From Nitrosomonas cryotolerans ATCC 49181 (GTDB taxonomy: Bacteria > Pseudomonadota > Gammaproteobacteria > Burkholderiales > Nitrosomonadaceae): DNA of 64,000 nt. The DNA lies in assembly GCF_900143275.1 (NCBI RefSeq), contig NZ_FSRO01000001.1:186001-250000 (forward strand), in the 5' to 3' direction. Made by a program: the position numbers and the translations under genes. Of the stretch, positions 7,911-44,612 are shown piece by piece (the first letter of the stretch is position 1; every line of letters starts with the position of its first letter). The notes under the pieces were generated by a model. The model had not been told where the DNA came from, made no database searches, and worked only from the letters and a program-made list of their open reading frames with translations.

Positions 7911-8341
7911 GGTTCTAGAAATTTCTTATTAAGTTAGCATGGGTATATGCGTCATTTATGACTCATCTTGACCCGAGGCTTTTGCAGAACCACAATAGTT
8001 TGAAAAATTAATTCTTGATAATCAATAGTAGAAAGCTTATAGCGAGGGCTTTTGCAAAAGTCTCGATCCATCTAAGAATAGGGAACGGAGAGCTGTCCGG
8101 TAGGGTGTTTGTAGTCACGATAATGGCTTTCGGATTATGAATCTTATAAAAAAATTAATTTTTTGAAAACAGTTATTTATGGCGATTATCTGACAGTTCT
8201 CTGAGAGATTATCTTGAAATAGAACCGATTTCTGGGTATTCCGTGATAGTTTTGATGAATGAGAGAAACATAAAAAGGTGCTGATTAGAACAAGGATTAT
8301 ATGAAAGTGTGAGCATTGGCATGAAGCGGTTTGGGATTTAA
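7911..8341. other. Intergenic gap between the PEP-CTERM gene and zapD
   Basis: A 431-base gap between convergent genes, holding one copy of the 89-bp repeat family (7975-8064). A 76-codon minus-strand frame (8115-8345) starts at the zapD stop but is not recognisable as a protein. Confidence 0.5.
7975..8064 (-). repeat. 89-bp interspersed repeat, copy R1
   Basis: One of six related copies. Ends are GAGGCTTTTGC and GCAAAAGTCTC, in inverted orientation, around an AT-rich core with the TTGATAATCAATAG-type sequence. The flanking pentamers are GACCC (7970-7974) and GATCC (8065-8069), a 4/5 match that may be a worn target duplication. Confidence 0.8.
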
Positions 8342-9097
8342 TCATAAGTTACAGAAAGTGAGTTCGAATGGCACATCATCCTCGTATACTTTGATTTTTT
8401 GTCCTGATTGTGAGGGGATGAAACGTATGCTCAGCGCATATTTATTGGCGCTGATTTCTGGAACACAAGGATAATCTTCACTTACCTTTAATCTCAGCAT
8501 ATGTGCGATACATCCTGATCCTGTTTGCTGGAAAACACCCTGGCGTGCGATAAACTGAAAAGTTTTGCCGCTGCTTCTCAACAGGTGGAGCACAATATTA
8601 CAGGCATTACGAGCAGGCAATAACAGTGTGAACCAAGCGTTAAAATTATCGCGTCGCAGTGCTGGATCCAAATGCAACCAGTAATGATAAGAAGGCAAAT
8701 CAAATTCACATGCTCCACCGGGCATGCTGATGCGCTGTTTGATGCTCATCAGCCATTCATTTTCACGCAAGTGCTCACCCACTTTTCCTGCTATATTTAA
8801 CATATCTCGGAATGTGATTTGTATATCGTTGAGCACCTTATTAAGCGCTGCTTCAGAAATATCAGGGTTTTTACGTAATATTTCCAGAATTTGTTTTTGC
8901 CGTTCCAGTTCTTGTAATAAATCCGACTTGATATCTGCACGACTGGTTATCTCAAGAACTTCAAATAAGGCAACCAGTGCAGCATGGTGTTCGATCGGGG
9001 TATCTTTGGCAGAAAAGAAATCGATTCTATTAAACAAGTCCTCAAGTCGTAACAAGGTACGAATACGTTCATTGAGAGGGTGTTCATAACAAATCAC
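8342..9097 (-). CDS. zapD: Cell division protein ZapD
   Basis: A 251-residue ZapD (DUF1342) protein, which cross-links FtsZ filaments and stabilises the Z ring in the cytoplasm. The N-terminal YEHPLNERIRTLLRLEDLF motif is the family signature, and its fit supports the GTG start at 9097, which has AGGTTA upstream. An alpha-helical domain follows, then a C-terminal beta-rich domain that binds the FtsZ tail. It sits about 100 bases after coaE on the same strand, the classic coaE-zapD-yacG arrangement, but yacG is now 7 kb away beyond the helicase gene. Confidence 0.93.
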   Translation of the reverse strand: MICYEHPLNERIRTLLRLEDLFNRIDFFSAKDTPIEHHAALVALFEVLEITSRADIKSDLLQELERQKQILEILRKNPDISEAALNKVLNDIQITFRDMLNIAGKVGEHLRENEWLMSIKQRISMPGGACEFDLPSYHYWLHLDPALRRDNFNAWFTLLLPARNACNIVLHLLRSSGKTFQFIARQGVFQQTGSGCIAHMLRLKVSEDYPCVPEISANKYALSIRFIPSQSGQKIKVYEDDVPFELTFCNL

Positions 9098-9199
9098 AAT
9101 AAGTATAACCTGTAAGAGAGTGTGGGATATAGGGTATCGCCTTATGTAACATAAGTCACATTATTTCACAAACAAAAATGAGACCATTCAGGAAAACGG

Positions 9200-9826
9200 C
9201 TAAGATATTGTTTGAATAATGGGGTGTTGCTTGGATAGCATAATGTACTTTTTATGTAAATCAATGACCTGTTTATTTAGATAGGCCATGCCTTGGTTGT
9301 TGGTGATAATGTCATCAGCTTTTTGTAAACGTTCCTGCCGTGAAATTTGGGTTGCCATGATGGCGCAAATTGTCTGCTGAGTTAACTGGCTGCGCGCCAT
9401 GGTACGCGTAATTTGATGTTGTTCATCACAATCGATCACCAAAATGCGCTGAATCATATGATGATAATCTGTTGTTTCAAATAATAAGGGGATCATAATG
9501 ATGATATAGCAGGATCGGGTCAATGCAATACGCCGACTGACTTCTTCGCGGATGAGCGGATGGAGAATGGCTTCAAGTTTTTGCCGAGAAGCAGAATCTG
9601 AAAATATCTGGCTTCGCATCTTTTTTCTATCCAGAGCGCCATCCGCAGTAATAAAATCACCACCGAATCTATTTTTGATGGGAATAATAGCAGGGCCTTG
9701 TGGCTGGGTTAATTCCTGAGCGATTTGATCAGTATCAATCACATCAATGCCCAAAGCTGAAAAATACTGGCCGGCACTGGATTTTCCGCTGCCAATTCCT
9801 CCTGTTAATCCCACTATGAAAACCAT
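9200..9826 (-). CDS. coaE: Dephospho-CoA kinase
   Basis: CoaE phosphorylates the 3'-hydroxyl of dephospho-CoA with ATP, the last step of CoA synthesis. The protein has 208 residues, the normal length. The P-loop GLTGGIGSGKSS is at residues 6-17, followed by the DTDQIAQEL substrate segment, the HPLIREEV motif and MIPLLFET. Only three bases separate it from the pilD stop, so the two are co-transcribed. The gene for the preceding enzyme, coaD, is also in the window, at 23479. Confidence 0.96.
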   Translation of the reverse strand: MVFIVGLTGGIGSGKSSAGQYFSALGIDVIDTDQIAQELTQPQGPAIIPIKNRFGGDFITADGALDRKKMRSQIFSDSASRQKLEAILHPLIREEVSRRIALTRSCYIIIMIPLLFETTDYHHMIQRILVIDCDEQHQITRTMARSQLTQQTICAIMATQISRQERLQKADDIITNNQGMAYLNKQVIDLHKKYIMLSKQHPIIQTIS

Positions 9827-9829
9827 CGA

Positions 9830-10690
9830 CTAGAATAATCCTAAATAGGTATTGTTTAATTCTTCCCCCCAAAACAAAGCAATGAGAGAGCCGCCCGCTA
9901 GATAAGGTCCGAATGGAATCAGTGAATCTTTATCGTGCTTCGCAGTGAGGATTAAGCTAACGCCGACTATTGCACCTACAAACGAGGAGAATAAAATAAC
10001 CAGTGGGAGCATATTCCATCCTAGCCATCCACCGGTAACAGCGAGTAGCTTGAAATCGCCGTGCCCCATTCCTTCCTTACCTGTAGCAAGCTTAAAGCAC
10101 CAATATATGGACCACAAAGAAAGATAACCCACCATAGCGCCGATAACTGCAGAATGAATATCGGTAAAGCCATTATTCAAATTGATGAGTAAACCGATCC
10201 ATAAAAGAGGTAATGTGATGTCATCAGGGAGCAGTTGTGTATCTAAATCAATGAAGGTTAATGCAATCATTGCCCAGACAAAAATTAATGCCGCAATGGT
10301 GATTAAGCTATAACCGAAATACCAAGCAGTGAAGCCGCTCATGATGCTGGTGAGCATTTCTACAATGGGGTAACGCAGAGAAATGGGATGGTGACATCGA
10401 GAGCAGCGTCCTCTTAAAGCCAAGTAGCTAAGAATGGGAATGTTTTCTAGTATTGTAATTTTATGACCGCAATGAAAACAGATAGACCGGGGCGTTGCAA
10501 TATTGAATGTAGGTAATATTTCAGCAGATTCTCCGCGCAATTCCGCACATTGCTGCCGCCAGCCTTGTTCCATCATTTTTGGAAGCCGGTAAATGAGTAC
10601 ATTGAGAAAACTGCCGACCATTAAACCAATAATAATGATGAAAGTGATAAAAAAGCTGGGTGTATTGTGCAGTAAGGATATGAATGACAT
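9830..10690 (-). CDS. pilD: Type IV prepilin peptidase / N-methyltransferase
   Basis: PilD cleaves the leader of prepilins at the inner membrane and methylates the new N-terminus. The 286-residue protein has a first membrane segment, then a cytoplasmic zinc domain with Cys71-X2-Cys74 and Cys96-X2-Cys99. Several membrane helices follow. The two aspartyl-protease sites are Asp148 (FIDLDTQLLPD) and Asp212 in the GxGD motif (GMGHGDFKL). All key residues are intact. It lies between pilC and coaE on the same strand, the usual pilin-assembly order. Confidence 0.96.
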   Translation of the reverse strand: MSFISLLHNTPSFFITFIIIIGLMVGSFLNVLIYRLPKMMEQGWRQQCAELRGESAEILPTFNIATPRSICFHCGHKITILENIPILSYLALRGRCSRCHHPISLRYPIVEMLTSIMSGFTAWYFGYSLITIAALIFVWAMIALTFIDLDTQLLPDDITLPLLWIGLLINLNNGFTDIHSAVIGAMVGYLSLWSIYWCFKLATGKEGMGHGDFKLLAVTGGWLGWNMLPLVILFSSFVGAIVGVSLILTAKHDKDSLIPFGPYLAGGSLIALFWGEELNNTYLGLF

Positions 10691-10734
10691 GGGTATGTTA
10701 ATGTAATAAAAAATATTTTTAAATCCTGATCAGT

Positions 10735-11958
10735 CTAGCCCACAACCATACCCATTTTAAAGATAGGTAAATACATCGCAATGACCATGCCGCCGATCAG
10801 TGTACCCAGCACAACCATAATAATCGGCTCCATTAGGCTGGAGAGCGCATCTACAGCATCGTCAACCTCGGCCTCAAAAAAATCAGCAACTTTACTAAGC
10901 ATCGAGTCCAGCGAGCCGGATTCCTCGCCGATAGAAACCATTTGTATGACCATATTTGGGAAAATATTGGTATTGGCCATGGAGGCCATCAAACTGTTAC
11001 CTGTACTGACTTCTATTTGAATCTTTTTAGTTGCTTCATAATAAACATAATTGCCTGCAGCACCGGCGACAGAGTCTAACGATTCAACCAGAGGAACACC
11101 CGCAGCAAACATAGTGGAAAGGGTGCGTGACCAGCGTGCAATAGTGGCTTTACGAATGACTTCACCGAATATGGGTAATTTCAAAGCCAGTCTATCTATC
11201 ACTTGCTGCATGGGAACCGATCGTTTCCATGCATAAAAAAACCCATAGATACCACCAGTTACACCGCCGAAAATCGCCCACCAGTAGGCAACAAAAAAAT
11301 CTGAAAGCGTCATCACGACCAATGTTGGTGTGGGTAGTTCAGCGCCGAATCCTTCAAATAACTCCTTAAATGCAGGAATTACGAAGATCATGATTACCGC
11401 GGTAATAATAAATGCCACGACAATAATTGAAATAGGATAGAACAAAGCGGATTTAATTTTTCCTTTAATTGCCTGGATTTTTTCTTTGTATGTAGCCAAG
11501 CGATCTAATAAACTGTCGAGAATACCCGCAGCTTCGCCGGCGCCAACCAGATTACAGAATAAGGCGTCAAAATAAAGGGGGTGTTTGCGAAAGGCGTCGG
11601 CTAAATTACTTCCTGTTTCTACCTCATTTTTAATATCCATCAGCAATCGGCTTACGGCACGATTGCTATTTCCTTTACCAACGATATCAAAGGCCTGTAA
11701 TAAGGGTACACCTGATTTCATCATGGTCGCGAGTTGGCGTGTAAATAAGGTAATATCTTTATCCGTAATCGTGCCATTAGAATAAATTTTTTTAATCTTT
11801 GTGACTTTAACTCCCTGGCGGCGTAGTGTGGAAGTAATCACAACAGGCCCTGCTGCACGCATTTCACCTTTTAGTAATTTCCCTGTTTTATCTTTTCCTT
11901 CCCACGAGTAATTAATTTCTTTTAATTTTTTTTCTTCGCGCGTTGTCGCAGCTGCCAT
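10735..11958 (-). CDS. pilC: Type IV pilus inner-membrane platform protein PilC
   Basis: The protein of 407 residues carries two T2SF/GspF domains, each followed by membrane helices, and ends with a hydrophobic region (MVIAMYLPIFKMG). It forms the inner-membrane platform on which the PilB and PilT motors act. The N-terminus (INYSWEGKDKTGKLLKGEM) matches PilC proteins. pilD follows after 44 bases. The extension ATPase gene pilB, often immediately upstream, is not present in the window; an unrelated epimerase gene lies there. The retraction ATPases pilT and pilU are at 25-28 kb. Confidence 0.95.
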   Translation of the reverse strand: MAAATTREEKKLKEINYSWEGKDKTGKLLKGEMRAAGPVVITSTLRRQGVKVTKIKKIYSNGTITDKDITLFTRQLATMMKSGVPLLQAFDIVGKGNSNRAVSRLLMDIKNEVETGSNLADAFRKHPLYFDALFCNLVGAGEAAGILDSLLDRLATYKEKIQAIKGKIKSALFYPISIIVVAFIITAVIMIFVIPAFKELFEGFGAELPTPTLVVMTLSDFFVAYWWAIFGGVTGGIYGFFYAWKRSVPMQQVIDRLALKLPIFGEVIRKATIARWSRTLSTMFAAGVPLVESLDSVAGAAGNYVYYEATKKIQIEVSTGNSLMASMANTNIFPNMVIQMVSIGEESGSLDSMLSKVADFFEAEVDDAVDALSSLMEPIIMVVLGTLIGGMVIAMYLPIFKMGMVVG

Positions 11959-12146
11959 ATTGACCCCTTAATCACCTAAAATGCCTATTTTCTGCCTAGG
12001 TATATAAAAATGATTGATCTAGAACAATGATTTTTGAGACTGTGGGGCTTGTAACGGCACAATTTTATAGGTTGCTTAATGTTAATTTTGAAACATCAAT
12101 ATCGAAATTATCCAGCTGGATTTTATAATTAAATTTGATATGGATC

Positions 12147-13043
12147 TTAACTGGTTATCGAATCTGCTCTGATGCCTTCCTGCACGGTTGGAAAGCGTAG
12201 TGTAATACGCAATTCTTGTTTCATGCGAATATTCTTGAGTCGCCTTGATTCTTTCATGTATGACAGCATCCCAGGGGATATCTGTTGATTAGCTTGATCA
12301 CGAGTAATTCTGGGCGGGCGCGGAAGATCAAATTGATCTGCCACCAGATCGAAGTATTCTCCCATTTTTAAATGCGAATTATCGCACGCGTGATAAATCC
12401 TGCCACCAGGCTTGGCGTAACGTAGTGCAGCGAAAATGATTTGTGCGAGATCATCAGCGTGAATATGATTAGTGTAATTATCATCTGCGTCAACGAGCAC
12501 TGGATGACCTTCATGCAGCCGGGCTAACGGTAAGCGGTTGCTGGCATAAATCCCTGGTACACGTAATATTGAGATATTAATGTGATTGCGTATTCCCCAG
12601 CGACGAATTTGTTTTTCTGCATTCATGCGCCTTAGCGCACGGTTATTACCTGGTTTTGCCGGATGAGTTTCATCGATTAGTGCACCATGGCAATTACCAT
12701 ATACTCCGCTAGTACTGATATAGATAAGCCGTTGTGGTAAAATCTCTCTATGTGTTTTAGATCGCCTTGCCAGGGCGGATAAAAGATGGGTCGTGCGTGT
12801 ATCGCCTATTCCGTGATTAGGTGGCGGAGCTAAATGCAAGACTGATTGGGCAATTCCTGCGAGTCTGTCAAGACTACTGGGGTGGTCAAGATCTCCATAT
12901 ATTGGAGTAATTCCCTGTGCACGTAGTTGATGTGAGTTTTTTAAATTGCGGCACAGACCCAGTATTCGATAATGTGTTTGTAATAGCGGCGCTGCTCGCA
13001 AGGCGATATCACCACAACCAATAATTAAGAGTGTGTTTTTCAT
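12147..13043 (-). CDS. SDR-family NAD(P)-dependent epimerase/reductase (YeeZ-like)
   Basis: The protein of 298 residues starts with a Rossmann segment (LLIIGCGDIALRAAP), less Gly-rich than usual. It carries the SDR catalytic-type motif ISTSGVYGN (Ser and Tyr) and an extended-SDR substrate domain. The C-terminal part (RLKNIRMKQELRITLRFPTVQEGI) resembles YeeZ-type SDRs. The substrate is unknown. It is divergent from the reductase gene at 13094 by only 50 bases, so the two may share a control region, and it lies upstream of pilC on the same strand. Confidence 0.8.
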   Translation of the reverse strand: MKNTLLIIGCGDIALRAAPLLQTHYRILGLCRNLKNSHQLRAQGITPIYGDLDHPSSLDRLAGIAQSVLHLAPPPNHGIGDTRTTHLLSALARRSKTHREILPQRLIYISTSGVYGNCHGALIDETHPAKPGNNRALRRMNAEKQIRRWGIRNHINISILRVPGIYASNRLPLARLHEGHPVLVDADDNYTNHIHADDLAQIIFAALRYAKPGGRIYHACDNSHLKMGEYFDLVADQFDLPRPPRITRDQANQQISPGMLSYMKESRRLKNIRMKQELRITLRFPTVQEGIRADSITS

Positions 13044-13093
13044 AATGAGTTTTTTTCCTGGTTATTTTCTTTTTTTAGTTCGTCTGTAATTCA

Positions 13094-14143
13094 ATGTCGC
13101 ATGAAATTATCATTAATCCGAGTGGGCATGTTTTAACCGTAAAATCCGGCGAAACAATTTTACAAGCTGCTTTACGTGAGGGCTTCTCATTGCCATATGG
13201 TTGCCGTAATGGGTCTTGTGGTATTTGTAAAGGCAAAATCATACAAGGCACGGTAGATTATGGTGAGTATAGTCATGATACGCTGACAGAAGTGGAAAGA
13301 GAGGCGGGCATGGCGCTCTTTTGCTGTGCTGTGCCCTTATCTAAACTGGTCATAGAATGTCATGAGATCAGTGAAATTAAAGATATTGAAATTAAAAGAT
13401 TACCGTGCAGAGTACATAAGCTGGTTCGTGTCGCGCCTGATGTAATGATTATTTTTCTGAAACTGCCTGCGAATCAACGCTTGCAGTTTCTAGCGGGACA
13501 GTATATCGATATTTTGCTGAAGGATGGCGGGCGCCGCAGCTTTTCATTGGCGAATGCGCCACATGATGATGAGTTTCTGCAATTACATGCACGTAATTAT
13601 CCGGGTGGTGTGTTTGCGGAGCACGTGTTTACGCAAATGAAAGAGAAAGATATTTTACGTTTTGAAGGACCATTAGGATCGTTTTTTTTACGTGATGCGC
13701 CAGAGTATGATGATATCCCTATTATATTTATTGCCAGTGGCACGGGGTTTGCGCCGATTAAAAGCATTCTTGAGCATGCTTTCTCTATGGAAAATGGTCG
13801 TGGCTATAAAAAACATATGACGCTTTATTGGGGAGTACGTACCAAAGCTGATTTATATCTAACAGACTTGATATACGATTGGCAACGGCAACACGAGCAC
13901 TTTACCTTTATTCCTGTTTTGTCGGACGCGCTGCCTACCGATAATTGGCAAGGAAGAAAAGGACTGGTCCACCAAGCGGTATTAGAGGATTTTCAGAGCT
14001 TGGCTAAGCAGCAGGTATATGCCTGCGGTTCACCTGTAATGGTAAAAGCTGCTTATAATGATTTTACTAATTTACGTAGCTTGCCAAAAGACAGGTTTTT
14101 TTCCGATGTGTTTACACCTTCAGCAGGGCTTTCCAAACCATAG
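13094..14143 (+). CDS. 2Fe-2S ferredoxin-FAD-NAD(P)H reductase (CDP-6-deoxy-glucoseen reductase-like)
   Basis: Three electron-transfer domains in order within 349 residues. A plant-type ferredoxin domain (1-90) has cluster cysteines Cys37, Cys42, Cys45 and Cys77. An FAD domain carries RSFSLAN. An NAD domain carries the ASGTGFAPIKSI motif and a C-terminal YACGSPVMV. This layout is that of AscD/RfbI and of oxygenase reductases. In betaproteobacteria such genes are often annotated as CDP-6-deoxy-delta-3,4-glucoseen reductase without a deoxysugar pathway nearby; none is seen here either, so the electron acceptor is unknown. It stands alone, divergent from the SDR gene. Confidence 0.85.
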   Translation: MSHEIIINPSGHVLTVKSGETILQAALREGFSLPYGCRNGSCGICKGKIIQGTVDYGEYSHDTLTEVEREAGMALFCCAVPLSKLVIECHEISEIKDIEIKRLPCRVHKLVRVAPDVMIIFLKLPANQRLQFLAGQYIDILLKDGGRRSFSLANAPHDDEFLQLHARNYPGGVFAEHVFTQMKEKDILRFEGPLGSFFLRDAPEYDDIPIIFIASGTGFAPIKSILEHAFSMENGRGYKKHMTLYWGVRTKADLYLTDLIYDWQRQHEHFTFIPVLSDALPTDNWQGRKGLVHQAVLEDFQSLAKQQVYACGSPVMVKAAYNDFTNLRSLPKDRFFSDVFTPSAGLSKP

Positions 14144-14195
14144 AACATAGGTAGGATCCCCGTTTTACTTATAATCTCCCTGCATTGTTAGAATA

Positions 14196-15371
14196 TTAAC
14201 TCAATTGCTCTAAGGTAAATCCGAGTCCTTTGTTATAGTGGCTCATGGCAAGTTCATGCTTACCAAGTTTCTCACTTAATTGAGCCAAGGCAAGATGAGC
14301 TGCGTGACCAGGCTCTACAGATAGACTGGCTTCCAGATAGTTTTGTGCTTTACCCCATAGTTCGCAATGAGCACACAGTTTGCCCAACGTTAATAATAAA
14401 TGGGCATTATTGGGTTGAGACTTGAGCCAAACTTCAGCGCATTCTATCTGCCTGTTCACATGATAGTCGAGGCACTCTGCGTAAAGTGTAATTAATTCAG
14501 AATTCCATTCTACATCAACGTATTGTTCGATGATGTGATGGGCTGTTGCGCAATCTCCCTGTGATATATACGCGCGTGTTGCGGCAACAGCGAGCTTACT
14601 GTTTCTCTTTTCTATGGTAGTTAAGTTTTGCCAATATTTATTTAATAGTTGCGGATCGGATGCTTTAAGCTGAATGTTTTCCAGATGTGCAATGAGTTTC
14701 AGTTGTTCTATTGATGCTTTATTAAAAGGGTGCCGTTTTTCCAAAAGGTAAATTAAATCGAGTACTGCATCCCAATTCTTTGCTTGCTGTTGTGCTTCCA
14801 ATTCAAGTTGCAGTACAGCAGTCTGTTGTAATCCACCTGTAGAATATAAGGTTTGCAGTACATTGAGCGCTTCTTCGTAACGTGTTTCATTGAGCAGCAA
14901 TTCTGTTTGTGTTACGAGTCTTACCGTTCTTTCCTCAGGGGCACCTTTTTCCGCGAGGGATAAAAATTCATCGCGTAATTTAAAAGCGCCCAATTTATGT
15001 GCTGAGCGTGCTGCAATAACAGCATTAATTACCTTCATCGTCGGTGCATCTGCTAGTTTCAATGCAGTAGAAGCACTTCGCTTTGCTTTGATATAATCAC
15101 CTTCGAAGAAAGCCTTAAGCCCGGTTAGCATCATTTCGTCTGCTTTTTTATGGCGATGTCGCTGGTTGAATCCGAAGAGGCCTAATATGAGACGCAGTAG
15201 GAAATAGAAAATAAAAAACGCGACTAATAATGCCATGATAAATATATTGAGTGATAGCTCAACTTGGTAGGGAGAAAGCACTAACAAAACATGGCCGGTA
15301 TTATATTTAGCTGCAAATGTCACTGTCACTGCGGCAGCAAATAAGGCTAATAGCCAGAGTATCAGTCTCAT
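14196..15371 (-). CDS. hemY: HemY-type membrane TPR protein
   Basis: The protein of 391 residues has two N-terminal membrane segments (residues ~1-20 and ~40-65) and a long alpha-helical TPR-like region to the C-terminus (for example HAAHLALAQLSEKLGKHELA). It is the enterobacterial-type HemY, unrelated to protoporphyrinogen oxidase HemY of Bacillus. Its role in heme synthesis is assumed from the conserved hemC-D-X-Y operon. The start overlaps the hemX stop by four bases (ATGA), so translation is coupled. Confidence 0.92.
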   Translation of the reverse strand: MRLILWLLALFAAAVTVTFAAKYNTGHVLLVLSPYQVELSLNIFIMALLVAFFIFYFLLRLILGLFGFNQRHRHKKADEMMLTGLKAFFEGDYIKAKRSASTALKLADAPTMKVINAVIAARSAHKLGAFKLRDEFLSLAEKGAPEERTVRLVTQTELLLNETRYEEALNVLQTLYSTGGLQQTAVLQLELEAQQQAKNWDAVLDLIYLLEKRHPFNKASIEQLKLIAHLENIQLKASDPQLLNKYWQNLTTIEKRNSKLAVAATRAYISQGDCATAHHIIEQYVDVEWNSELITLYAECLDYHVNRQIECAEVWLKSQPNNAHLLLTLGKLCAHCELWGKAQNYLEASLSVEPGHAAHLALAQLSEKLGKHELAMSHYNKGLGFTLEQLS

Positions 15372-16390: not shown

Positions 16391-16402
16391 ATTTCCGAGA
16401 AA

Positions 16403-17191: not shown

Positions 17192-17192
17192 T

Positions 17193-21071: not shown

Positions 21072-21596
21072 TTATCTTGCTAGGTTTGAACAATAATAGC
21101 GTTTAAATGGACTGCTGCTATCTGAATCGGCGAAAGGAATGCTCAGCAAAGGTAATTGGCTACTAAATTCATATTGTGATTGATCTGAGAGATGGAATAA
21201 TGCAGCTACAAGCAGTAATGACTATTTTAGTTGCGATGTTCCGCGTGAAACCAGGAAAAAGTTTTGTACTTTGATTATGGATATATCCGAGCGGTTATTC
21301 ATTATCTATAATGAGGCCTTTGCAAAACTCCAATAGTTTAAAAATTAATTATTTATAATCAATAGGCGAAGACTTCTGGCGAAGACTTCTGCAAAAGTCT
21401 CGCGCTGTTTTAATGTAATGATCCGAGTAACCTCGGTTGATTGCTGATACTGGCGATTCATTTTTCACTGCACTTAGGATATGTATTTGATAGAAAATTT
21501 AATTTCTGTAAACAGGAATAAAATTGATCCAATATTTAACAGATCTAAAATTTTAAATAAGCTGTTTCAGCTTGTTTGCTCGTAGGGGAAATTACC
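21072..21596. other. Long gap between ppc and the M16 protein gene
   Basis: About 525 bases without a gene. It contains repeat copy R2 (21313-21401). In related genomes an active M16 peptidase gene commonly precedes the inactive one. I cannot find a convincing remnant of it here. Confidence 0.5.
21313..21401 (-). repeat. 89-bp interspersed repeat, copy R2
   Basis: Ends are GAGGCCTTTGC and GCAAAAGTCTC, with the core AATAGTTTAAAAATTAATT. Inside, the sequence GGCGAAGACTTCT is tandemly doubled (21365-21390), so the copy is locally rearranged. No target duplication is visible (ATAAT left, GCGCT right). Confidence 0.78.
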
Positions 21597-22928: not shown

Positions 22929-24223
<1,295 letters not shown>

Positions 24224-24626
24224 GCGTTTTTAAGCTGTTTGTGATGATGCGTGTATTAAACTCAAGAGGCGACTATAGTGTGTGTAATCAGAGCTATTTT
24301 TTGTAGGCACTCTAATGGTAATTGTATATTAAGCTTAGCTTTCTAATCTCCATGCAATGATGCTGTTTTGCTGGCATTTTGCTTTCGGTCCAGAACGATG
24401 CCATTAATTAATAAAATTGCCTGCTGATATTGTTTGTATCGTAAACGCTCATTAGCGTACGAATCATCTTGAGTTGTATCTAAAGCAGCGCCATTGATCC
24501 TTTTCTGTTCTCCACTCCCTCTTTTTGTTTAATTTGTATTGATGATAGCCGTTAATGAATAAATCATCCCGAATTCCTGTGATTTATAGGGTGATGGATG
24601 ATTTGTGATAGCTTCCTAGACTAATA

Positions 24627-24715
24627 GAGACTTTTGCAAAAGCCCTCGCCAGAAGTTTTATGCTATTGATTATAAAAGATTAATTTTTTAATCATTGGGG
24701 TTTTGCAAAGGTCTC
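24627..24715 (+). repeat. 89-bp interspersed repeat, copy R3
   Basis: The best-preserved copy. Ends are GAGACTTTTGC and GCAAAGGTCTC. It is flanked on both sides by TAATA (24622-24626 and 24716-24720), a perfect 5-bp direct repeat that looks like a target-site duplication. Confidence 0.88.
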
Positions 24716-25079
24716 TAATAATCAAACGTAACAATTCAATTGATGCGGTAGCTACCACATTACGGAACAGCCCTATTATTGAGGATATGGTGATGATCCA
24801 GAGCATGCGAATGCGGCGGTTGATAGGAACAGATATCTAACGGTTAAAAAATGTAATCATGACATCTTGGCGGGTGTGTAGGATGATGATTGAGCTCTAT
24901 GATGGCCTGAATCGGTTATAAATTTGTGAATGCATAATCAGGAAGATAGTGTCTGCCTCGTAGCCTACGGTTAATTACGGAGAGAGCGGTGTAGTCTATC
25001 CGGCTGTGTCGTATCAAATAATTGGTAAAGTTACCTTCTTGTGCGCTGCGTTTTGATTATCCACCGAGCATTTGATTGA

Positions 25080-26209: not shown

Positions 26210-27047
26210 TGTATCGACTAGTTTGGAGGTTTGATCGGCTGTGACTGGTTTTACAAGAAAATATTATAGGAGCAATATCTTTCATCAGTTGTCCGACTGT
26301 ATACAATCTGACATCATAAAATACTACATGGAAACAGGCAAAATGAGCTTCTTTCTATAAATGGTGGATGATGACGATGTGAGACAACCTGGAATATAAT
26401 TTCGGAGTAGGCTTGTTGGAGATTTGTCTGGATGATGGTTGTTTTGATCTTTGAAGGACAACAGTGAGCAAGTAGTGCAGCAAGCGAGTGAGGCTGAAAC
26501 CGGTTTGTATCATTTTCTCTTTAATCAGGGATGGGGTGAATTCATCTTCGGATATAAGACAATATGGAACGCAGAATTCTGCTGTGTCGCCTAGAGATCT
26601 AAATTCATCCGTGCTGTTACCCCGTGTTGAAAGACCATCAGAAGAACATTAGAAAGGCAGTTTTACAACAATTTTGAATACAAAAAATCAAATCGCTATA
26701 GTAGTGGGATGATCGGCGCATAAGATCAATGTAATTTCATTAAAATATAAAAAACAACAAGTTGCTTTGAAAAGAGGAATCTATTGAAGATATTCATGTA
26801 AGAAGTCTTTGCAAAAGCTCTCGCCATAAGTTTTCTACTATTGATTATAAAGAGTTAATTTTTCAACTATTGGAGTTTTGCAAAGGTTTTGTAGGGTTTT
26901 TGCATGCCTATCGTAGAGATCACTATTCTTTAGGGTGGCGAGAGATGTCAATACTATTAGGTGGGTCTAGTAGTACATTGGTATTGTCGGGAGAGGGGAG
27001 TTTCCATCATTGGGTTAGGTTTTAATTATGAATTTCAGGAATTGGCT
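26210..27047. other. Long gap between pilT and pilU
   Basis: No recognisable gene in 838 bases; contains repeat copy R4 (26802-26890). In most genomes pilT and pilU are close neighbours. A short open stretch near 26460-26590 has no likeness that I can name. Confidence 0.55.
26802..26890 (+). repeat. 89-bp interspersed repeat, copy R4
   Basis: Same orientation as R3 and R5; the core CTATTGATTATAAAGAGTTAATT and the CAACTATTGGAGTTTTGC side are well kept. The outer bases are worn (GAAGTCTTTGC; GCAAAGGTTTT). No clear target duplication. Confidence 0.82.
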
Positions 27048-34788: not shown

Positions 34789-34812
34789 TAACACGAGAGA
34801 AATAGAATATTA

Positions 34813-35235: not shown

Positions 35236-35249
35236 ATATATTAATAGCT

Positions 35250-35277: not shown

Positions 35278-35535
35278 GTATCTGCCTTTCATGAAAGAAA
35301 GATTGAATATGTGCTATCTGCTTATTAATCTGATGAAGGTAGAGTATCGTGCTAAGAAATGGCTTTATTTGTCAGGCGGCTAATTTTTTTACAATTTATT
35401 ATAATAAGTTGCAGAATTTAAGCAAGTAACCATCATTGAAGTGCTCAGTGAGGCTATTTGAGACTTTGAGGGTTTGTCTTTTGGTCTGAGACACAATCCG
35501 TTAATTGTTCCCTTAATTAATTGGTGTTTGATATC

Positions 35536-36909: not shown

Positions 36910-36969
36910 AGCAATTCAACCTTCCAGTTTAATTCGATCTGACAAGTGTAGTAAGAAGGAAAACTTGAT

Positions 36970-38817
36970 ATGTGTGGAATAGTTGGTGCGGTGGCAAATG
37001 GCAATGTTGTGCCAATCTTATTGGAAGGCTTGTTTCGTCTTGAATATAGGGGCTATGATTCCGCTGGTCTTGTGGTAGCCAGGAATGGATTGCACCGATT
37101 GCGGACTACCGGGCGCGTATCTGAGCTGGATAAACTTGCAAATAAATTGAATACTCAGGGACTTGCGGGTATTGCACATACGCGTTGGGCAACGCATGGC
37201 GCACCTTCTGAACGTAATGCACATCCTCATTTCTCGAAGGCCGTTTCGGAGATAGCTATTGTGCATAATGGCATCATAGAAAATCACGAATTAATGCGTC
37301 AGCGTTTACAGGCGGCAGGATTTGAGTTCGTTTCCGATACGGATAGCGAGGTTATCGCCCACCTTGTTGCTTCTAATTTTCAGCAAACAAGTGATTTATT
37401 TGAAGCTGTTTGTCTGTCTATCGCTGAGTTGCAAGGTGCCTATGCAATAGCCGTTATGGAGGAAGCACGCCCTGATCGTATTATTGTTGCACGTAATGGC
37501 GCCCCTTTGTTGCTAGGGTTAGGTAAAACTGGTAACTATGCTGCTTCTGATGTGTCTGCTTTGCTGCAGGTGACGCGAAATATAGTTTATTTAGAAGAGG
37601 GCGATGTTGCTGAGTTAAATAATGAGGGATATCGCATTGTTAACTGTCTGCATAGCAAGTTGGGTGAAGAAGTAGAGCGTCTTGTTCATGAAAGTGATCT
37701 GGCTAGTGAAGCGATAGAATTAGGGCCTTACGCCCATTTTATGCAGAAAGAAATTTTCGAGCAGCCCGGTGCGGTGGCTAATACACTCGAAATGATATTT
37801 AATATACATTCCATTTCCCCGGAATTGTTTGGTAGTGAAGCCGAAAATATTTTTCGTGATACAAACAGTATTCTGATACTTGCCTGTGGTACCAGTTATC
37901 ATGCTGGATTAGTTGCCCGGTATTGGTTAGAAACAGTTGCTGGGTTACCTTGTAATGTGGAAATTGCCAGTGAGTATCGTTATCGGAATCCCATTGCAGA
38001 TCCTGCTACCTTGGTGGTGGGAATCTCTCAGTCGGGTGAGACTGCGGATACACTGGCTTCACTTAACTATGCTAAATCGCTCGGACATCGCCATAGTTTG
38101 GCTATTTGTAATGTAGCCGAAAGCGCCTTAATACGCCAAGCTGATTTGCGCTTTCTCACACGTGCCGGACCCGAAATTGGTGTGGCTTCAACCAAAGCAT
38201 TCACTACCCAACTGGCATCGTTATTGCTGCTGACGATGACGCTGGCAAAGATGCGGCATAAATTATCCAATGAATATGAAGGTAAGATGATTGCGGCCTT
38301 GCGCCATCTACCTGCTGCATTGCAGCTGGCTTTGCAAGTAGAGCCCCAGGTTAAAGCCTGGGCGGAGAGATTTGCTCAGAAACGCCATGCCTTATTTCTT
38401 GGAAGAGGGGTGCATTATCCTATAGCGATGGAAGGAGCACTCAAGCTTAAGGAAATTTCATATATTCATGCGGAGGCTTATGCTGCAGGTGAGTTAAAAC
38501 ATGGCCCATTAGCCTTAGTGGATAATGAAATGCCGATAGTTGCCATTGCGCCAAATGATGTATTGCTGGGTAAACTAAAGTCAAATTTGCAAGAAGTCCA
38601 GGCACGTGGCGGCGAACTTTATGTTTTCGCTGATGCGGATTCTCAAATACAGGAAAGCGAACATGTTCATGTTATCCGGCTTGCAGAGCATGCCGGATTG
38701 CTGAGTCCCATTCTCCATACTATCCCATTGCAGTTGTTGGCTTACCATGTTGCTTTACAGAAAGGCACCGATGTTGATAAACCACGCAATTTGGCGAAAG
38801 CCGTAACGGTAGAATAA
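36970..38817 (+). CDS. glmS: Glutamine-fructose-6-phosphate aminotransferase (isomerising)
   Basis: GlmS makes glucosamine-6-phosphate from fructose-6-phosphate and glutamine, feeding GlmM and GlmU. The catalytic Cys follows the initiator Met (CGIVGAVA). The glutaminase domain covers residues 1-~220 ([16 protein letters not shown]), and two SIS domains follow ([23 protein letters not shown]). The C-terminal [15 protein letters not shown] is the family end. 60 bases after glmU, likely co-transcribed. Confidence 0.98.
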
Positions 38818-39180
38818 AAATAAAATAGACTTCGGATTTAAAATAAATCGTATGTTTAGATTAGCCCGTCCGAGAGCAAAGTAGGCGTTTGATGCTTTTC
38901 GATACTATGATCAATATTTGATCAACTTCGTTCAATCACCTTGTTCTAAAACGTATAAGACCAAAATCTATCTTGGTAAATAAACCTGGGCGCTCAACAG
39001 GTTTAATGATGAAATGCATTAATATTTGTGATTAGGCTATAGCAAATAGATCGACGATTAAATCTGATCTCAGGTGGAAGTGACAATTCTTAGAGTCATT
39101 GTTGGGAAACCGTGTGCGATGCTTTATCCGTAGGATACGGAGTGATAATATAAAGCTCTTTTATAAAGGAACTCAGGTAA
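38818..39180. other. Gap between glmS and yebC
   Basis: 363 bases of AT-rich sequence with no gene, repeat copy or clear terminator. A ribosome-binding site (AAAGGAACTC) for yebC is at its end. Confidence 0.5.
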
Positions 39181-39906
39181 ATGGCTGGTCATAGTAAATG
39201 GGCTAATATTAAGCATAAGAAAGCGGCGCAGGATGCCAAACGCGGTAAGATTTTTACTCGCTTAATTAAGGAAATAACAGTTGCAGCTAGATTGGGTGGT
39301 GCAGATCCAGACAGTAATCCCCGTTTACGTTTAGCTATGGATAAGGCATATGATCAGAATATGCCAAAAGATAACGTTGAGCGTGCGATCAAACGTGGTA
39401 GCGGCGATCTTGAGGGTGTCAATTACGAAGAAATCCGCTATGAAGGCTACGGGATATCTGGTGCGGCAGTAATGGTTGATTGTATGACCGATAACCGGAC
39501 GCGTACTGTGGCGGATGTACGCCATGCTTTTACCAAATATGGGGGTAATCTAGGTACTGATGGTTCGGTTGGGTTCTTATTTAAACATTGTGGACAATTG
39601 CTTTTTGCGCCTGGGACTCATGAAGATGAACTAATGGAGGCGGCGCTGGAAGCCAGTGCTGAAGATGTTATCGTTAATGAAGATGGCAGTATTGAAGTCA
39701 TTACTGAACCTTATGAATTTATTTCTGTTAAGGAGGCGCTGGAGCAGGCAGGTTTTAAGGCGGAACATGCGGAAGTAACGATGAAACCTGTTGATGAAGT
39801 TGTGTATAGCGGCGAGGATGCGATAAAAATGCAAAAATTACTTGATGCACTGGAAAATCTTGATGATGTGCAAGAGGTTTACACGACGGCTGTTATTCAT
39901 GAGTAG
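39181..39906 (+). CDS. yebC: YebC/TACO1-family translation/transcription factor
   Basis: The protein of 241 residues begins [22 protein letters not shown], the invariant YebC start, and has the [14 protein letters not shown] motif. YebC proteins help ribosomes through proline stretches and/or bind DNA; the exact role in this organism is unknown. In many proteobacteria ruvC-ruvA-ruvB follow directly, but here about 700 non-coding bases come next. Confidence 0.96.
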
Positions 39907-40604
39907 GTAACTATTTAGCAAGTTTTCTCCGTTAATACTGGTCCTGTCTAGGCTTGATAGCTGGAAATTATTGGTGGAAATGATAGTAAGCGTTTTGTTA
40001 GTGGTGTGTTTATAGCCTGAATAAATAGTGGTACAGTGATTTGTACAGCAGTCATGAACAGTTTTATCGTGATTGGCAACACGGTATTCCAGATTAAATA
40101 AGTGATGGCTGATAATGGCAGTGCAAGTGACATTCAATATAAATAATATTGGTGTTATTTCAAGATATCCAAGTATGACTTTTTATAGGGACCTGATTAT
40201 TATTCGAAGTGCCCAGAGATGTTATTTTGAGGTGATTTTATATTGAATTGCTGTAATCGGAAAAATCGGGATACCATAGAGGGAGATTTTTGCAAAAATC
40301 CCCGCCAGAAGTTTTTGACTATTGATTATAAATAGTTAATTTTTCAACTATTGGGGTTTTGCAAAGGTCTCAGAGGATGTAGCAAAACCTTCTTGTCTAA
40401 TTCAATAAGTCTTCCTGAAATGCGCGTTATCCGGATAGATGGCATCTATCGGCTGTTCGGTATATTTCTGCCGGAAAGAGAGCGAAGCGTCATGAAAGAG
40501 GGAAATATTGAAAAAATAGATCAGACTATTTTTGAGATACTACTTCAAAGTTTAAATGGCAGTGTATGGCAGATAAATTAGATTAAACTGAACACATTAA
40601 ACTT
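39907..40604. other. Long gap after yebC, where ruvC is often found
   Basis: About 700 bases without a convincing gene; contains repeat R5 (40283-40371). A short stretch (40026-40097) reads SGTVICTAVMNSFIVIGNTV before a stop, faintly like the SGTIRT...MN part of RuvC, but with stop codons upstream in the same frame. A 76-codon frame at 40351-40581 starts inside the repeat and looks spurious. Confidence 0.45.
40283..40371 (+). repeat. 89-bp interspersed repeat, copy R5
   Basis: Ends are GAGATTTTTGC and GCAAAGGTCTC; core CTATTGATTATAAATAGTTAATTTTTCAACTATTGGGG-type (40321-40356). Flanked by AGAGG on both sides (40278-40282 and 40372-40376), a perfect 5-bp direct repeat. It establishes the exact ends together with R3. 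Confidence 0.88.
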
Positions 40605-41045
40605 ATGCAAACTCAAATGTTACGTATCATCATTGTGATTTTACTCACATTGGTTGTTGCGCTGTATTTTTATACAGATCGACAGAAATATTATTATAGC
40701 TTAACTGCAGAACCGGCTATTGGCCAAATTCTTACCGAAGTTTCCGGTTGGAAAAAACAGGTACTACTACGGCATCTTGCTCCTGAAACATTACAAACAG
40801 TCAGCGATGAACAATTGGAAGCATTACTGGCTCTCTATCGTGGTTTTGGAAATTTTCGTTCAGTGAATGAATTAGAATTTTCGCGGACGGTGAGTGCATT
40901 CTCATTGATTGGAGAGAAGCGAATAAATTATTCTGGAACAGCAAATTTTGATATTGGACTTGTGAATGTCAATATTACTTTGGTTGAGCGATCTGGCTTT
41001 TTCCTGATTTATAATTTCACTTTAACAAGAGCAGCTGACAAGTAA
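40605..41045 (+). CDS. Hypothetical single-pass membrane protein
   Basis: The protein of 146 residues has one N-terminal hydrophobic segment (IIIVILLTLVVALYFY) followed by a polar domain, predicted periplasmic, with a mix of helix and beta strands. It has no motif that I can name. Codon use resembles its neighbours, and the frame is clean over its full length, so I believe it is real. It lies between the repeat-bearing gap and the transhydrogenase genes, with no obvious partner. Confidence 0.65.
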   Translation: MQTQMLRIIIVILLTLVVALYFYTDRQKYYYSLTAEPAIGQILTEVSGWKKQVLLRHLAPETLQTVSDEQLEALLALYRGFGNFRSVNELEFSRTVSAFSLIGEKRINYSGTANFDIGLVNVNITLVERSGFFLIYNFTLTRAADK

Positions 41046-41362
41046 TATTAATCGCAGCGTATCAGAAATGCTGCCTCAGGCTATGGGTGAGACTGAAATT
41101 CCGGTCAATATATATGCTATGAAGCTATATTCGAGCCGCTTTTCAGATCAATGCTTGCTTTCAACAGAATGATGAGCGTAAACGGCACACGTTGCAGATC
41201 CGATAGGGTAAATAGTCGTGAAACTAAAACGAATTTAAGTTTTTCCCAATCGAGGTAATGCATTAGGTTCAAATTGATTTATAATCCATGATTATTCATA
41301 GTAAATTGAGCGCGGCTTTAGTTATTTTCATAAGCTTGTTGGTAAGATAAGGGAGATTATCA
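41046..41362. other. Gap upstream of pntAA
   Basis: 317 bases without a gene. A ribosome-binding site (AAGGGAG) lies at the end, before the pntAA ATG. No clear promoter hexamers were identified. Confidence 0.45.
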
Positions 41363-42490
41363 ATGCATATAGGCATACCCGCAGAGATTCGCGCGGGAGA
41401 AACTCGCGTAGCTACTACGCCAGAGATTGTAAAAAAATTTACGGCTAAAGGCACTCATGTTGTTTTAGTACAGGCAGGTGCAGGTGCAAGTGCCAGCATA
41501 CCGGATTCAGCATATCATGATGCCGGTGCAACTATTGTGACTGATGTGGCGGCCTTGTATAGCCAGTCTGAAATTATACTTAAGGTGCGCGGACCAGAGT
41601 CTGACGAATTAGCAATGATGCGGAGAGATGCCGTGTTGCTGGGACTGTTGTCTCCACATCAGGTAGAAGGTATTGAAGCACTGGCAAAACATGGTTTGAC
41701 TGCTTTTTCCATGGAAAAACTGCCGCGTATTTCTCGAGCTCAGAGTATGGACGTTCTTTCATCTCAGGCCAATATTGCGGGTTATAAAGCAGTGCTAATG
41801 GCCGCAAATATTTATCAACGATTCTTTCCCATGTTAATGACAGCTGCTGGCACCGTAAAAGCGGCTCGAGTTCTGGTGCTGGGCGCGGGGGTAGCCGGTC
41901 TGCAAGCAATCGCAACAGCGAAAAGATTAGGTGCGGTAGTTGAGGCATTTGATGTACGCCCTGCTGCGAAAGAACAAGTGGAAAGCCTTGGTGCCAAATT
42001 TGTTGAAGTACCCTTGAGCGACGAGGAGAAAACGACAGCAGAAACAGCCGGTGGTTATGCCCGTGAAATGTCGGATGATTATAAGCGTCGTCAGGGTGAG
42101 TTGGTGCACCAGCGTGCTATAGCGGCAGATATTATTATTACGACTGCATTGATTCCAGGCCGTCCAGCACCCGTTTTAATTAAACAAGAGACGGTTCAGT
42201 CTATGAAACCCGGCTCGGTTATCGTGGATATGGCGGTTGAAGCAGGGGGTAATTGTCCCTTATCGGAATTAGACAAGATTATAGTGAAACATGGCGTACA
42301 TTTAATTGGTATTGCCAATCTTCCTGGACTTGTGGCGGCTGATTCCAGCACATTATATGCACGGAATCTGATGAATTTTCTGAACCTGATGCTTGATCCG
42401 GAGACCGGCGAATTCAAGGTTAATCGTGAAGATGAAATTATCGCCGGAACACTGGTTTGTATAGATGGAGAAATTGTCAATAAAGTGTAA
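41363..42490 (+). CDS. pntAA: Proton-translocating NAD(P)+ transhydrogenase, subunit alpha part 1
   Basis: The soluble NAD(H)-binding domain I of transhydrogenase, 375 residues, on its own as in the three-subunit form. It has the RAQSMDVLSSQANIAGYKAV motif, the Rossmann GAGVAGLQAIATAK and the DVRPAAKEQVESLG segment. The enzyme uses the proton gradient to make NADPH from NADH, valuable for a chemolithoautotroph. Followed after 87 bases by pntAB. Confidence 0.96.
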   Translation: MHIGIPAEIRAGETRVATTPEIVKKFTAKGTHVVLVQAGAGASASIPDSAYHDAGATIVTDVAALYSQSEIILKVRGPESDELAMMRRDAVLLGLLSPHQVEGIEALAKHGLTAFSMEKLPRISRAQSMDVLSSQANIAGYKAVLMAANIYQRFFPMLMTAAGTVKAARVLVLGAGVAGLQAIATAKRLGAVVEAFDVRPAAKEQVESLGAKFVEVPLSDEEKTTAETAGGYAREMSDDYKRRQGELVHQRAIAADIIITTALIPGRPAPVLIKQETVQSMKPGSVIVDMAVEAGGNCPLSELDKIIVKHGVHLIGIANLPGLVAADSSTLYARNLMNFLNLMLDPETGEFKVNREDEIIAGTLVCIDGEIVNKV

Positions 42491-42577
42491 TTAATGTGCG
42501 GAAGCTGGAATGTGGAATTTAGATAATTAATTTTTACGTTTTGAACGTACAGTTAACGAATATAAGAGGGAGTAGTC

Positions 42578-42886
42578 ATGATTGGTGAAATTGATTCGGT
42601 CATTATCAATCTTACGGTATTTGTGTTGGCAATTTTTGTTGGCTACCACATAGTCTGGAATGTTACCCCAGCCTTGCATACGCCTTTGATGTCAGTGACT
42701 AACGCGATTTCCGGCATTATATTAGTTGGTGCTATGTTAGCGGCCGGACCGATGGAGACTGATTGGGGCGTCTGGCTAGGTGCTATTGCTGTAACGCTGG
42801 CTTCAATTAATGTATTCGGCGGTTTTCTAGTGAGTCAACGGATGCTGGAAATGTTTAAGAAAAAAGATAAAAAAGGAAGCGTGTAA
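42578..42886 (+). CDS. pntAB: NAD(P)+ transhydrogenase, subunit alpha part 2
   Basis: The membrane part of the alpha subunit as a separate 102-residue protein with three or four helices ([34 protein letters not shown]). It forms part of the proton channel. It ends one base before the pntB ATG. Confidence 0.95.
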
Positions 42887-44269
42887 ATGTCAGCAAATAT
42901 GGTTGCACTCGCGTATTTAGTTGCCTCAGTGTTTTTTATACTGGCGCTAAAGGGCTTAAGTTCGCCGGAATCTGCTCGCCGTGGTAACTTGTTTGGTATA
43001 GTCGGGATGACGATTGCTGTCGCCACTACGCTGACTCTTACCGAGAATTGGGCGTTGATATTGGGATGTATTGCAGTGGGTGGCATCATTGGTGCAATTG
43101 TTGCGCAGCGTGTGCAGATGACGGCAATGCCGGAGCTGGTTGCCTTCATGCATTCTCTAGTTGGTCTGGCCGCGGTATTTATTGCCATCGCAGCTGTTAA
43201 TAATCCTGTTTCGTTTGGTTTGCCCGAAATATTACCCATGGGTAGTAAGCTAGAGTTGTTTCTGGGTACATTTATCGGTGCGATGACTTGGTCTGGATCA
43301 GTCATTGCATTTTTGAAATTATCAGGTCGTATGAGTGGTACACCCATTACGTTTAGCGGACAGCATATAGTTAATTTAATGCTGGCACTCGTAATGATCG
43401 GTTTTGGTCTATGGTTTTTCTTTAGCGATACAACTAACTGGACAGCATTCATTGCCATGACTGCTATCGCTTTCATATTGGGATTTTTAATTATTGTCCC
43501 GATTGGTGGCGCAGATATGCCGGTAGTGATCTCAATGCTTAATTCATATTCTGGCTGGGCTGCAGCGGGAATTGGCTTTTCATTGGGCAATCCTATGCTG
43601 ATTATTGCGGGCTCCTTGGTTGGTAGTTCTGGCGCAATCTTATCCTATATTATGTGCAAGGCTATGAACCGCCCGTTTCTCTCAGTTATATTGGGTGGTT
43701 TTGGTAGCGATGGCGGCGTCGCTGCAGTAGCCGGTGACGGAGAGCAAAAGAATTATCGTAGTGGCAGTGCAGATGATGCTGCTTTCTTGATGGGCAATGC
43801 AGATAGCGTCATTATTGTTCCGGGATATGGTCTTGCAGTAGCGAGAGCACAACATGCGGTCAAGGAATTGGCAGAGTCCTTACAAGCAAAAGGTGTCAGT
43901 GTGCGTTTTGCTATTCACCCTGTAGCTGGACGTATGCCTGGACATATGAATGTGTTGCTTGCAGAAGCAGAAATTCCTTATGAGCAGGTATTAGAAATGG
44001 ATGAGATCAATAGTGATTTTTCCAATACCGATGTTGTGTTGGTGCTGGGTGCAAATGACGTGGTAAATCCTGCGGCAAATATTCCTGGCAGTCCCATCTA
44101 TGGCATGCCCATTCTGGATGCTCATAAAGCTCGTACTGTAATGGTTGTTAAACGTAGCATGGCTGTTGGTTATGCTGGTCTTGATAACGATCTGTTTTAT
44201 ATGGATAAAACCATGATGATATTTGGTGATGCGAAGAAAGTAGTTGAGAGTATGGTCAAATCATTATAA
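42887..44269 (+). CDS. pntB: NAD(P)+ transhydrogenase, subunit beta
   Basis: The protein of 460 residues has about nine membrane helices (residues 1-~260) and a C-terminal NADP(H)-binding domain III with the GYGLAVARAQHAV motif, AGRMPGHMNVLLAEA and GANDVVNPAA. All are intact. Last gene of the pnt operon. Confidence 0.97.
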   Translation: MSANMVALAYLVASVFFILALKGLSSPESARRGNLFGIVGMTIAVATTLTLTENWALILGCIAVGGIIGAIVAQRVQMTAMPELVAFMHSLVGLAAVFIAIAAVNNPVSFGLPEILPMGSKLELFLGTFIGAMTWSGSVIAFLKLSGRMSGTPITFSGQHIVNLMLALVMIGFGLWFFFSDTTNWTAFIAMTAIAFILGFLIIVPIGGADMPVVISMLNSYSGWAAAGIGFSLGNPMLIIAGSLVGSSGAILSYIMCKAMNRPFLSVILGGFGSDGGVAAVAGDGEQKNYRSGSADDAAFLMGNADSVIIVPGYGLAVARAQHAVKELAESLQAKGVSVRFAIHPVAGRMPGHMNVLLAEAEIPYEQVLEMDEINSDFSNTDVVLVLGANDVVNPAANIPGSPIYGMPILDAHKARTVMVVKRSMAVGYAGLDNDLFYMDKTMMIFGDAKKVVESMVKSL

Positions 44270-44290
44270 TGGCTAGCTACAGTGCTTTTT

Positions 44291-44326
44291 AAGCGGCTAT
44301 AAGATCCGCTTGCTCTATAATTTTTC
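44291..44326 (+). terminator. Possible terminator after pntB
   Basis: AAGCGG (44291-44296) and CCGCTT (44306-44311) form a 6-bp stem with a 9-base loop; a T-run (TTTTT, 44321-44325) comes some ten bases later. Weak, since the T-run does not directly follow the stem. Confidence 0.4.
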
Positions 44327-44522
44327 GGAATATGCGAGAGGCTCCGGCCGGAAAGCAGGAAATGAGTAGCGCGGACATCGCAAGTATTTTCTGATTTATA
44401 AGATTTTCATTGCGATGTCTGCTGTTGCTCGATATATTGAGCATATATGCTAATTGCTGGACTCCCCATACTTTTCTTGATAATCGGCCATTTTTTCAGG
44501 TCATTCGACTTGAAATATGCTT

Positions 44523-44612
44523 GAGCGCTTTGCAAAACCCCAATAGTTAAAAAAATTAACCTTTTATAATCAATAATTGGAAACTTCTGGCGAGGGCTTG
44601 TGCAAAAGCCTT
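44523..44612 (-). repeat. 89-bp interspersed repeat, copy R6
   Basis: Opposite orientation to R3-R5. Ends are GAGCGCTTTGC and GCAAAAGCCTT, with CCCCAATAGTTAAAAAAATT and AACTTCTGGCGAGGG inside. The ends are worn and no target duplication is visible. Confidence 0.8.

Follow-up and report, generated by a model that had tools for sequence, protein, structure and literature searches.

An 89-bp miniature transposable element family in Nitrosomonas cryotolerans and its likely IS5-family partner

For the ATR element of Neisseria meningitidis, an AT-rich miniature inverted-repeat transposable element (MITE) with 19 copies, the IS5-family insertion sequence (IS) ISNme1 was proposed as the parent (PMC4596501; this and the other papers named here are cited for excerpts of their text). 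The same excerpt gives 10-20 copies as typical for MITEs in bacteria and describes BrickBuilt and MITEPgRS of Porphyromonas gingivalis, which have GAGACCTTTGCA-type ends in common with IS5-family elements. The Correia repeat enclosed elements of Neisseria, with more than 250 copies in N. meningitidis, are short, carry inverted ends and occur also in internally deleted forms and as a short end remnant (PMC2649163). In archaea, MITEs of several IS families resemble their partner only in border segments of generally less than 20 nt (PMC3852290). Here we describe a family of 89-bp repeats that is represented by six copies in a stretch of 64,000 nucleotides from Nitrosomonas cryotolerans ATCC 49181 (contig NZ_FSRO01000001.1; G000:C1:186001-250000, where G000 is the own genome of 2.93 Mb), hereafter called the window. 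Based on sequence comparisons, we are confident that these repeats are a MITE, most likely moved in trans by the 355-aa transposase of an IS5-family element.

The 3′ end of the Nitrosomonas MITE consensus is identical over 15 bp to the ends of ISNme1 (GAGACCTTTGCAAAA / TTTTGCAAAGGTCTC; PMC4596501). ATR, which was assigned to ISNme1 via its ends, and the Nitrosomonas MITE were compared by ends and description. With an estimated 230-285 copies, the Nitrosomonas family exceeds ATR and lies far above the typical bacterial number. Its copy number is similar to that of the Correia elements, which it also resembles in being short, in its inverted ends, its internally deleted forms and its short end remnant, whereas ends and core are different (PMC2649163). 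BrickBuilt is intergenic like the Nitrosomonas MITE but numbers 18-19 copies, and its duplications vary in length; both BrickBuilt and MITEPgRS differ from it by their internal tandem repeats (PMC4596501). Border-only similarity to a partner is shared with the archaeal MITEs, although these belong to archaeal genomes and to other families (PMC3852290). In the excerpt on Kingella (PMC5070880), the same 15-mer occurs in a primer only. No published description of the 89-bp family was found in the open literature on Nitrosomonas and Methylotenera MITEs, on this end or on IS5-family MITEs, mostly judged by titles and abstracts. Given the ISNme1-type ends and the known high-copy parallels, the element represents a new family within a known class of mobile DNA rather than a new class. 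It explains a chromosome-wide repeat in an ammonia oxidiser, for which a likely mover can now be named.

All six copies reported for the window in an earlier note on this DNA were found at their places, four of them 89 bp long and two (R1 and R6) 90 bp. They can be aligned as one family, with three copies per orientation: R1 (7975-8064), R2 (21313-21401) and R6 (44523-44612) on the minus strand, and R3 (24627-24715), R4 (26802-26890) and R5 (40283-40371) on the plus strand. Near-identical inverted ends of 15-16 bp (GAGACYTTTGCAAAA) enclose an AT-rich core without genes. When up to three mismatches were allowed, the end GAGACCTTTGCAAAA had 14 matches in the window compared to 2.54 expected, and none of 100 shuffles reached this number. 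The flanks of the copies agree with the earlier reading: R3 is flanked by perfect 5-bp duplications (TAATA at 24622-24626 and 24716-24720), as is R5 (AGAGG at 40278-40282 and 40372-40376), and R1 has a 4/5 match (GACCC/GATCC). For R6, R2 and R4 the flanks match at 2/5, 1/5 and 0/5 positions, respectively, and the outer ends of R4 are decayed. R4 is located between two pilT-family genes and R5 downstream of a YebC/PmpR-family gene.

The target duplication was read at 85 distinct insertions of the own genome, of which 5 came from the window, 35 from evenly placed loci (L021-L040), 8 from loci near transposases (L001-L020) and 37 from L158-L177, mostly places taken from match lists. We excluded hits that span fewer than 84 of the 89 model positions or that have a locus end within 20 bases; one of the six window copies was lost in this way. 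In addition, the copy of L034 was merged with that of L001, which is the same place, and the insertion of L010 with its paralogue in L008. Length varies little in this set (88-90 bp in 79 of 85 copies), and the copies are too short for a transposase gene. A perfect 5-bp duplication was present at 50 of the 85 insertions, compared to a mean of 0.695 and a maximum of 4 in 1000 shuffles of the right flanks. Repeats of 3 bp (4 insertions), 4 bp (1 insertion) and 6-9 bp (none) were all inside the shuffled range. The evenly placed subsample gave a similar picture with 22 of 40 perfect duplications, and so did the relatives with 16 of 28 copies (32 rows, from which four loci repeating copies under other ids were removed). 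Correia elements have a 2-bp duplication (TA). The Nitrosomonas MITE differs in this respect, as its duplication is 5 bp long and 2-bp repeats were found at only 3 of the 85 insertions (shuffled mean 5.7).

Among 44 duplicated insertions, the 5 bp are preceded by A in 34 cases and then C or T in 41, and followed by A or G in 39 and then T in 35, which gives the symmetrical motif AY-N5-RT. This motif, to whose definition most of the scored insertions had contributed, is matched at 3-4 of 4 positions by 46 of the 50 duplicated insertions, compared to 15.5% of random sites.

An empty site is present among paralogues in the own genome. L008 and L010 contain a single common insertion in a duplicated transposase gene with TAATG on either side, while the paralogue L011 has TAATG once and an open frame of 275 aa (Pfam rve, 83.6 bits, cut-off 32.6; rve_3). 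The gene encodes an integrase-type transposase, which we read as IS3-type. In the relative G076, eight identical copies were found, each on a contig of its own and with its own flanks, and seven of them have perfect duplications, indicating that the family moved recently. The earlier note had named orthologous sites that never lack the element as an outcome against its interpretation; one site without the element, the paralogous one in L011, was found. The search for empty sites orthologous to R3 and R5 in relatives, suggested in the same note, gave no clean site, because the spacers fail to align. For R3, the alignment of the relatives covers only about 200 bp (window 24000-24216) and ends before the insertion. 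For R5, the right-hand gene is at least about 2.2 kb away from yebC in the relatives compared, versus 0.7 kb here. Around R4, those relatives for which both genes are listed have a short pilT-pilU spacer, unlike the 0.75 kb observed here.

In the window itself there is no autonomous parent, as had been noted before, and no match to either the 355-aa or the 371-aa transposase discussed below is listed there. However, a transposase gene bounded by the same ends, which the earlier note had proposed to look for, is present outside the window on the same chromosome (C1:1445155-1446426; L002, L126). This IS is 1272 bp long, has a 355-aa open frame and the ends GAGACCTTTGCAAAAC and GAGACCTTTGCACGG, and is flanked by the 5-bp duplication AGAAT (ATTCT on the other strand). 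The 355-aa transposase belongs to the IS5 family (NF033581, 241.7 bits, cut-off 140; matches to PF01609 and PF05598). By eye, the acidic motifs HIDAS, GDKAY and VERTFG were recognized, which we take to be those expected in a DDE enzyme. The PF01609 matches of the genome belong to several IS, and the remaining matches of the 355-aa type listed in the own genome are partial or contain stops. The 3′ end of the MITE equals one end of the IS at 16 of 16 positions, and the other IS end agrees at the first 12 of 12 positions and at 12 of 16 overall. We collected 16 distinct IS of the 355-aa type (18 rows, as two places were each read twice, under L136/L042 and L135/L041), of which 11 have both ends and flanks. 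Five of these (L126, L128, L132, L137 and L046) have a perfect 5-bp duplication, and all five insertions fit AY-N5-RT at 3-4 of 4 positions. Taken together, the 5-bp duplications, the paralogous empty site, the burst in G076 and this like-ended IS5-family element support the interpretation as a MITE that the earlier note had put forward. The family has the features by which MITEs are recognized: it is short, lacks a transposase gene and has inverted ends, a constant 5-bp duplication, signs of mobility and a like-ended partner IS. With respect to IS5-family MITEs of the ISNme1 type, both the end type (15 bp; excerpt of PMC4596501) and an IS5-family partner transposase were found.

The genome contains a second, commoner IS that may be considered as the mover, with a 371-aa transposase (P0002) and ten near-complete matches listed. 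Its transposase is also of the IS5 family (NF033581, 243.1 bits), its ends agree with those of the MITE at 11-14 of 16 positions (9-11 within the first 12), and a perfect 5-bp duplication was seen in all seven copies read (L004, L005, L006, L007, L009, L010 and L011; six distinct sites, as L010 and L011 share one). However, the ends of these copies start with AAGAC, with TGCACAAC further in, and none equals the MITE end, unlike the end of the 355-aa IS with its 16 bp. Moreover, the seven insertions match AY-N5-RT at only 0-1 of 4 positions. Judged from ends and target preference, the 371-aa IS is therefore the less likely mover, and we give it only a small chance. In G099, 21 matches to the 355-aa transposase (P0001) were found, of which those listed are about 37-38% identical and probably of the 371-aa type.

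Several observations weigh against the 355-aa transposase as the mover of the MITE. Past about 16 bp, the similarity between MITE and IS drops to 6-9 of 29 positions (positions 17-45), and the second end of the IS matches the MITE ends at 11-12 of 16 positions, which is no better than the 371-aa ends. Six of the 11 assessable IS have no perfect duplication; of the five IS beyond these 11, two are truncated by the end of a contig and three are missing one of their own ends. The comparison of IS and MITE targets is based on just five IS insertions. No perfect duplication is present at 35 of the 85 MITE insertions either. Furthermore, the MITE-containing genomes G050, G069, G004 and G088 have no transposase match at E 1e-40, and the copy of G050 nevertheless has a perfect duplication. 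The mover could be a lost relative. Because the homology ends after 16 bp, the MITE is not a simple internal deletion of this IS, and such an origin, or any descent from it, lacks sequence support. The restriction of the similarity to the ends fits a MITE built on ends alone, as in the archaeal families (excerpt of PMC3852290). With these points included, the 355-aa transposase is still most likely the enzyme that moves the element.

A search of the whole genome and of relatives, as advised in the earlier note, revealed a chromosome-wide family in the own genome and matches in other genomes of the genus. Of the 85 genomes of the genus, counting the own one, at least 20 have a match to the MITE model R1 at E 0.001 (at least 19 of the 84 others). 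These counts are lower bounds, as the search used stricter filters and scored at most 51 candidates per genome. Some of the listed hits are weak, and palindromic hits are listed on both strands. A whole or partial IS of the 355-aa type was found in 16 of the 20 genomes with the MITE compared to 21 of the 65 others (Fisher p 2.3e-4, a value that ignores relatedness and counts the own genome). The 37 genomes with this IS were scored by eye, at 55% identity or more and with fragments included. In G069, the model match (G069:C189:147-256) has these ends at a total length of 110 bp and encloses an unlike core, so that it may represent a further MITE family that uses the ends. In 43 named loci that were recruited by transposase (loci and not whole genomes), the MITE was absent, with a best E of 0.18.

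In the own genome, the end GAGACCTTTGCAAAA has 281 matches at up to one mismatch (135 forward and 146 reverse), while the reversed control has none. The window together with twenty evenly spaced 20-kb stretches (464 kb) contains 46 hits, some of them partial. The number of copies on the chromosome is estimated at about 285 from this hit density and at about 231 from the end count, corresponding to 0.7-0.9% of the chromosome. Mean divergence of 48 own-genome copies is 9.5% from the consensus (3.4-15.7%) and 15.5% pairwise, so that most of the spread there looks old. Of the sampled hits, 44 of 46 are intergenic compared to a random expectation of about 21% (with a rough gene caller). Of the flanking gene pairs, 17 are convergent, 22 tandem and 3 divergent, and the divergent placement of 3 in 20 deviates from even odds (p 0.0026). 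A TATAAT box on the minus strand of the core was judged by eye as a candidate promoter directed outward and rejected, as no proper -35 spacing was seen and the G077 copies lack the box. At L018:912-1396, a MITE copy abuts a fragment of the 355-aa IS. With R5 as the sole query, the plasmid collection gave no match at E 1e-5.

We propose that the IS5-family DDE transposase of the 1272-bp IS would recognise the MITE ends in trans and then move the element. Joining across a 5-bp staggered cut at AY-N5-RT sites would duplicate the 5 bp. Copies persist chiefly between genes, with few between divergent gene pairs. In old copies, the duplication may be lost by mutation. Such copies would also shrink, most likely by deletion either between internal repeats, which leaves 60 bp, or between the TTTTGCAAA motifs of the two ends, which leaves a 20-bp palindromic scar.

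The predicted fold of the copies could also point to a structured RNA family or a regulatory RNA element that spread with genes, and the earlier note had named structured RNA as an outcome that would speak against a MITE. For the six strands that were folded, a long hairpin was predicted at -23.6 to -34.3 kcal/mol (z of -4.0 to -6.4), but such a hairpin is a consequence of the inverted repeats at the termini. Rfam had no match in the window at the gathering score, and the consensus fold of 48 copies is weak (-2.23 kcal/mol), with changes on both sides in 4 of 15 pairs. Since the target duplications and the empty site indicate insertion, an RNA family is refuted as the primary explanation and we consider it very improbable. 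If transcribed, the hairpin of the Nitrosomonas MITE would be a possible substrate of RNase III by analogy with the Correia elements, for which RNase III processing is discussed (excerpt of PMC2649163). The copies might also be REP/BIME-like palindromes that owe their spread to a RAYT-type (Y1) transposase. The mainly intergenic location, the high copy number and the hairpin would agree with this, but it is the most improbable reading of all, given the ends in common with an IS5-type element and the perfect 5-bp duplications; Y1 transposition is not known to produce target duplications.

Returning to the MITE, its length is nearly constant. Among the own copies, 67 of 85 are exactly 89 bp long. 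The copies of relatives were found with an 89-position model, by which they are biased to that length; a search for exact GAGRYYTTTGCAAAA pairs of 45-134 bp total length is free of this bias. In G000, this search gave 72 pairs of 75-104 bp, four of 45-74 bp (all 60 bp) and none of 105-134 bp; in other genomes, there were 26 pairs of 75-104 bp in ten genomes and the one 110-bp pair of G069. Exactly 89 bp was the length of 41 among the 47 listed of the 72 G000 pairs and of 23 of the 26 pairs in other genomes. When 89-bp copies of relatives are compared with the own consensus, the identity of the core (positions 21-70) is only 42-54% in most genomes read and 60-80% in G004, G076 and G050, compared to 29-36% for shuffled cores (ungapped alignment; 28 of 32 rows, those 89 bp long). 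Part of the constant length could be due to common descent with few insertions or deletions. A more speculative idea, which we hold to be possible but rather unlikely, is that the element is set by its two ends and an 89-bp spacing that is fixed throughout the genus, with a core that drifts almost freely, plus a built-in palindromic exit route. In that case, the transposase-DNA complex would work best, or a copy would survive best, at an end distance of 89 bp, and loss of the core would leave exactly a 20-bp palindrome within the old duplication. The inner part of the end (TTTTGCAAAA) is palindromic and therefore simultaneously an inverted and a direct repeat.

Two shortened forms of the element were observed. 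In the 60-bp form, 29 bp are missing between two internal repeats, which were recognized by inspection (TTTTC.ACTATTG), and the identical deletion is present in copies at L026:6988-7047, L029:6565-6624, L159:298 and 799, and L160:242. As a perfect duplication (TTAAT) is found in one of the five 60-bp copies with flanks read, the 60-bp form may be the result of deletion in place or a mobile short form. At L158:285-386, a 60-bp copy is directly followed by a piece that resembles the right half of another copy, and the 102-bp row in the 85-copy set is a 60-bp copy read jointly with the adjoining piece. The second form is a 20-bp palindrome consisting of the two ends only (L178-L192 and L038:8106-8125), of which G000 has 10 occurrences and five other genomes together have 6. 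Perfect 5-bp repeats flank it at 7 of the 16 distinct sites, one of them within a T run. The shuffle control, which was run on 18 rows (8 perfect) representing these 16 sites, had a mean of 0.55 and a maximum of 4. Palindromes within 5-bp repeats fit an in-place deletion between the TTTTGCAAA motifs of both ends, and they are apparently the scars of copies that collapsed in place. G065 has one 20-bp palindrome and no match to the MITE model in the genus-wide search. The genus holds a clear natural record of one MITE family, in which an old and a recent burst can be seen alongside an empty site, copies that have shrunk and apparent scars. Both the near-fixed length of 89 bp and the 20-bp scars are directly testable.

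Other features of the window lie close to the copies or concern mobile DNA of another type. Just left of R1, a gene for a PEP-CTERM protein is present at 7047-7910 (TIGR02595, 26 bits, cut-off 16). An IS605-type OrfB/TnpB gene is located at 59909-61231 (PF01385, 103.7 bits; PF07282). An exact 300-bp repeat of this gene is found at positions 1-300 (region 1-965), and a second copy of the gene therefore seems to extend past the left end of the window.

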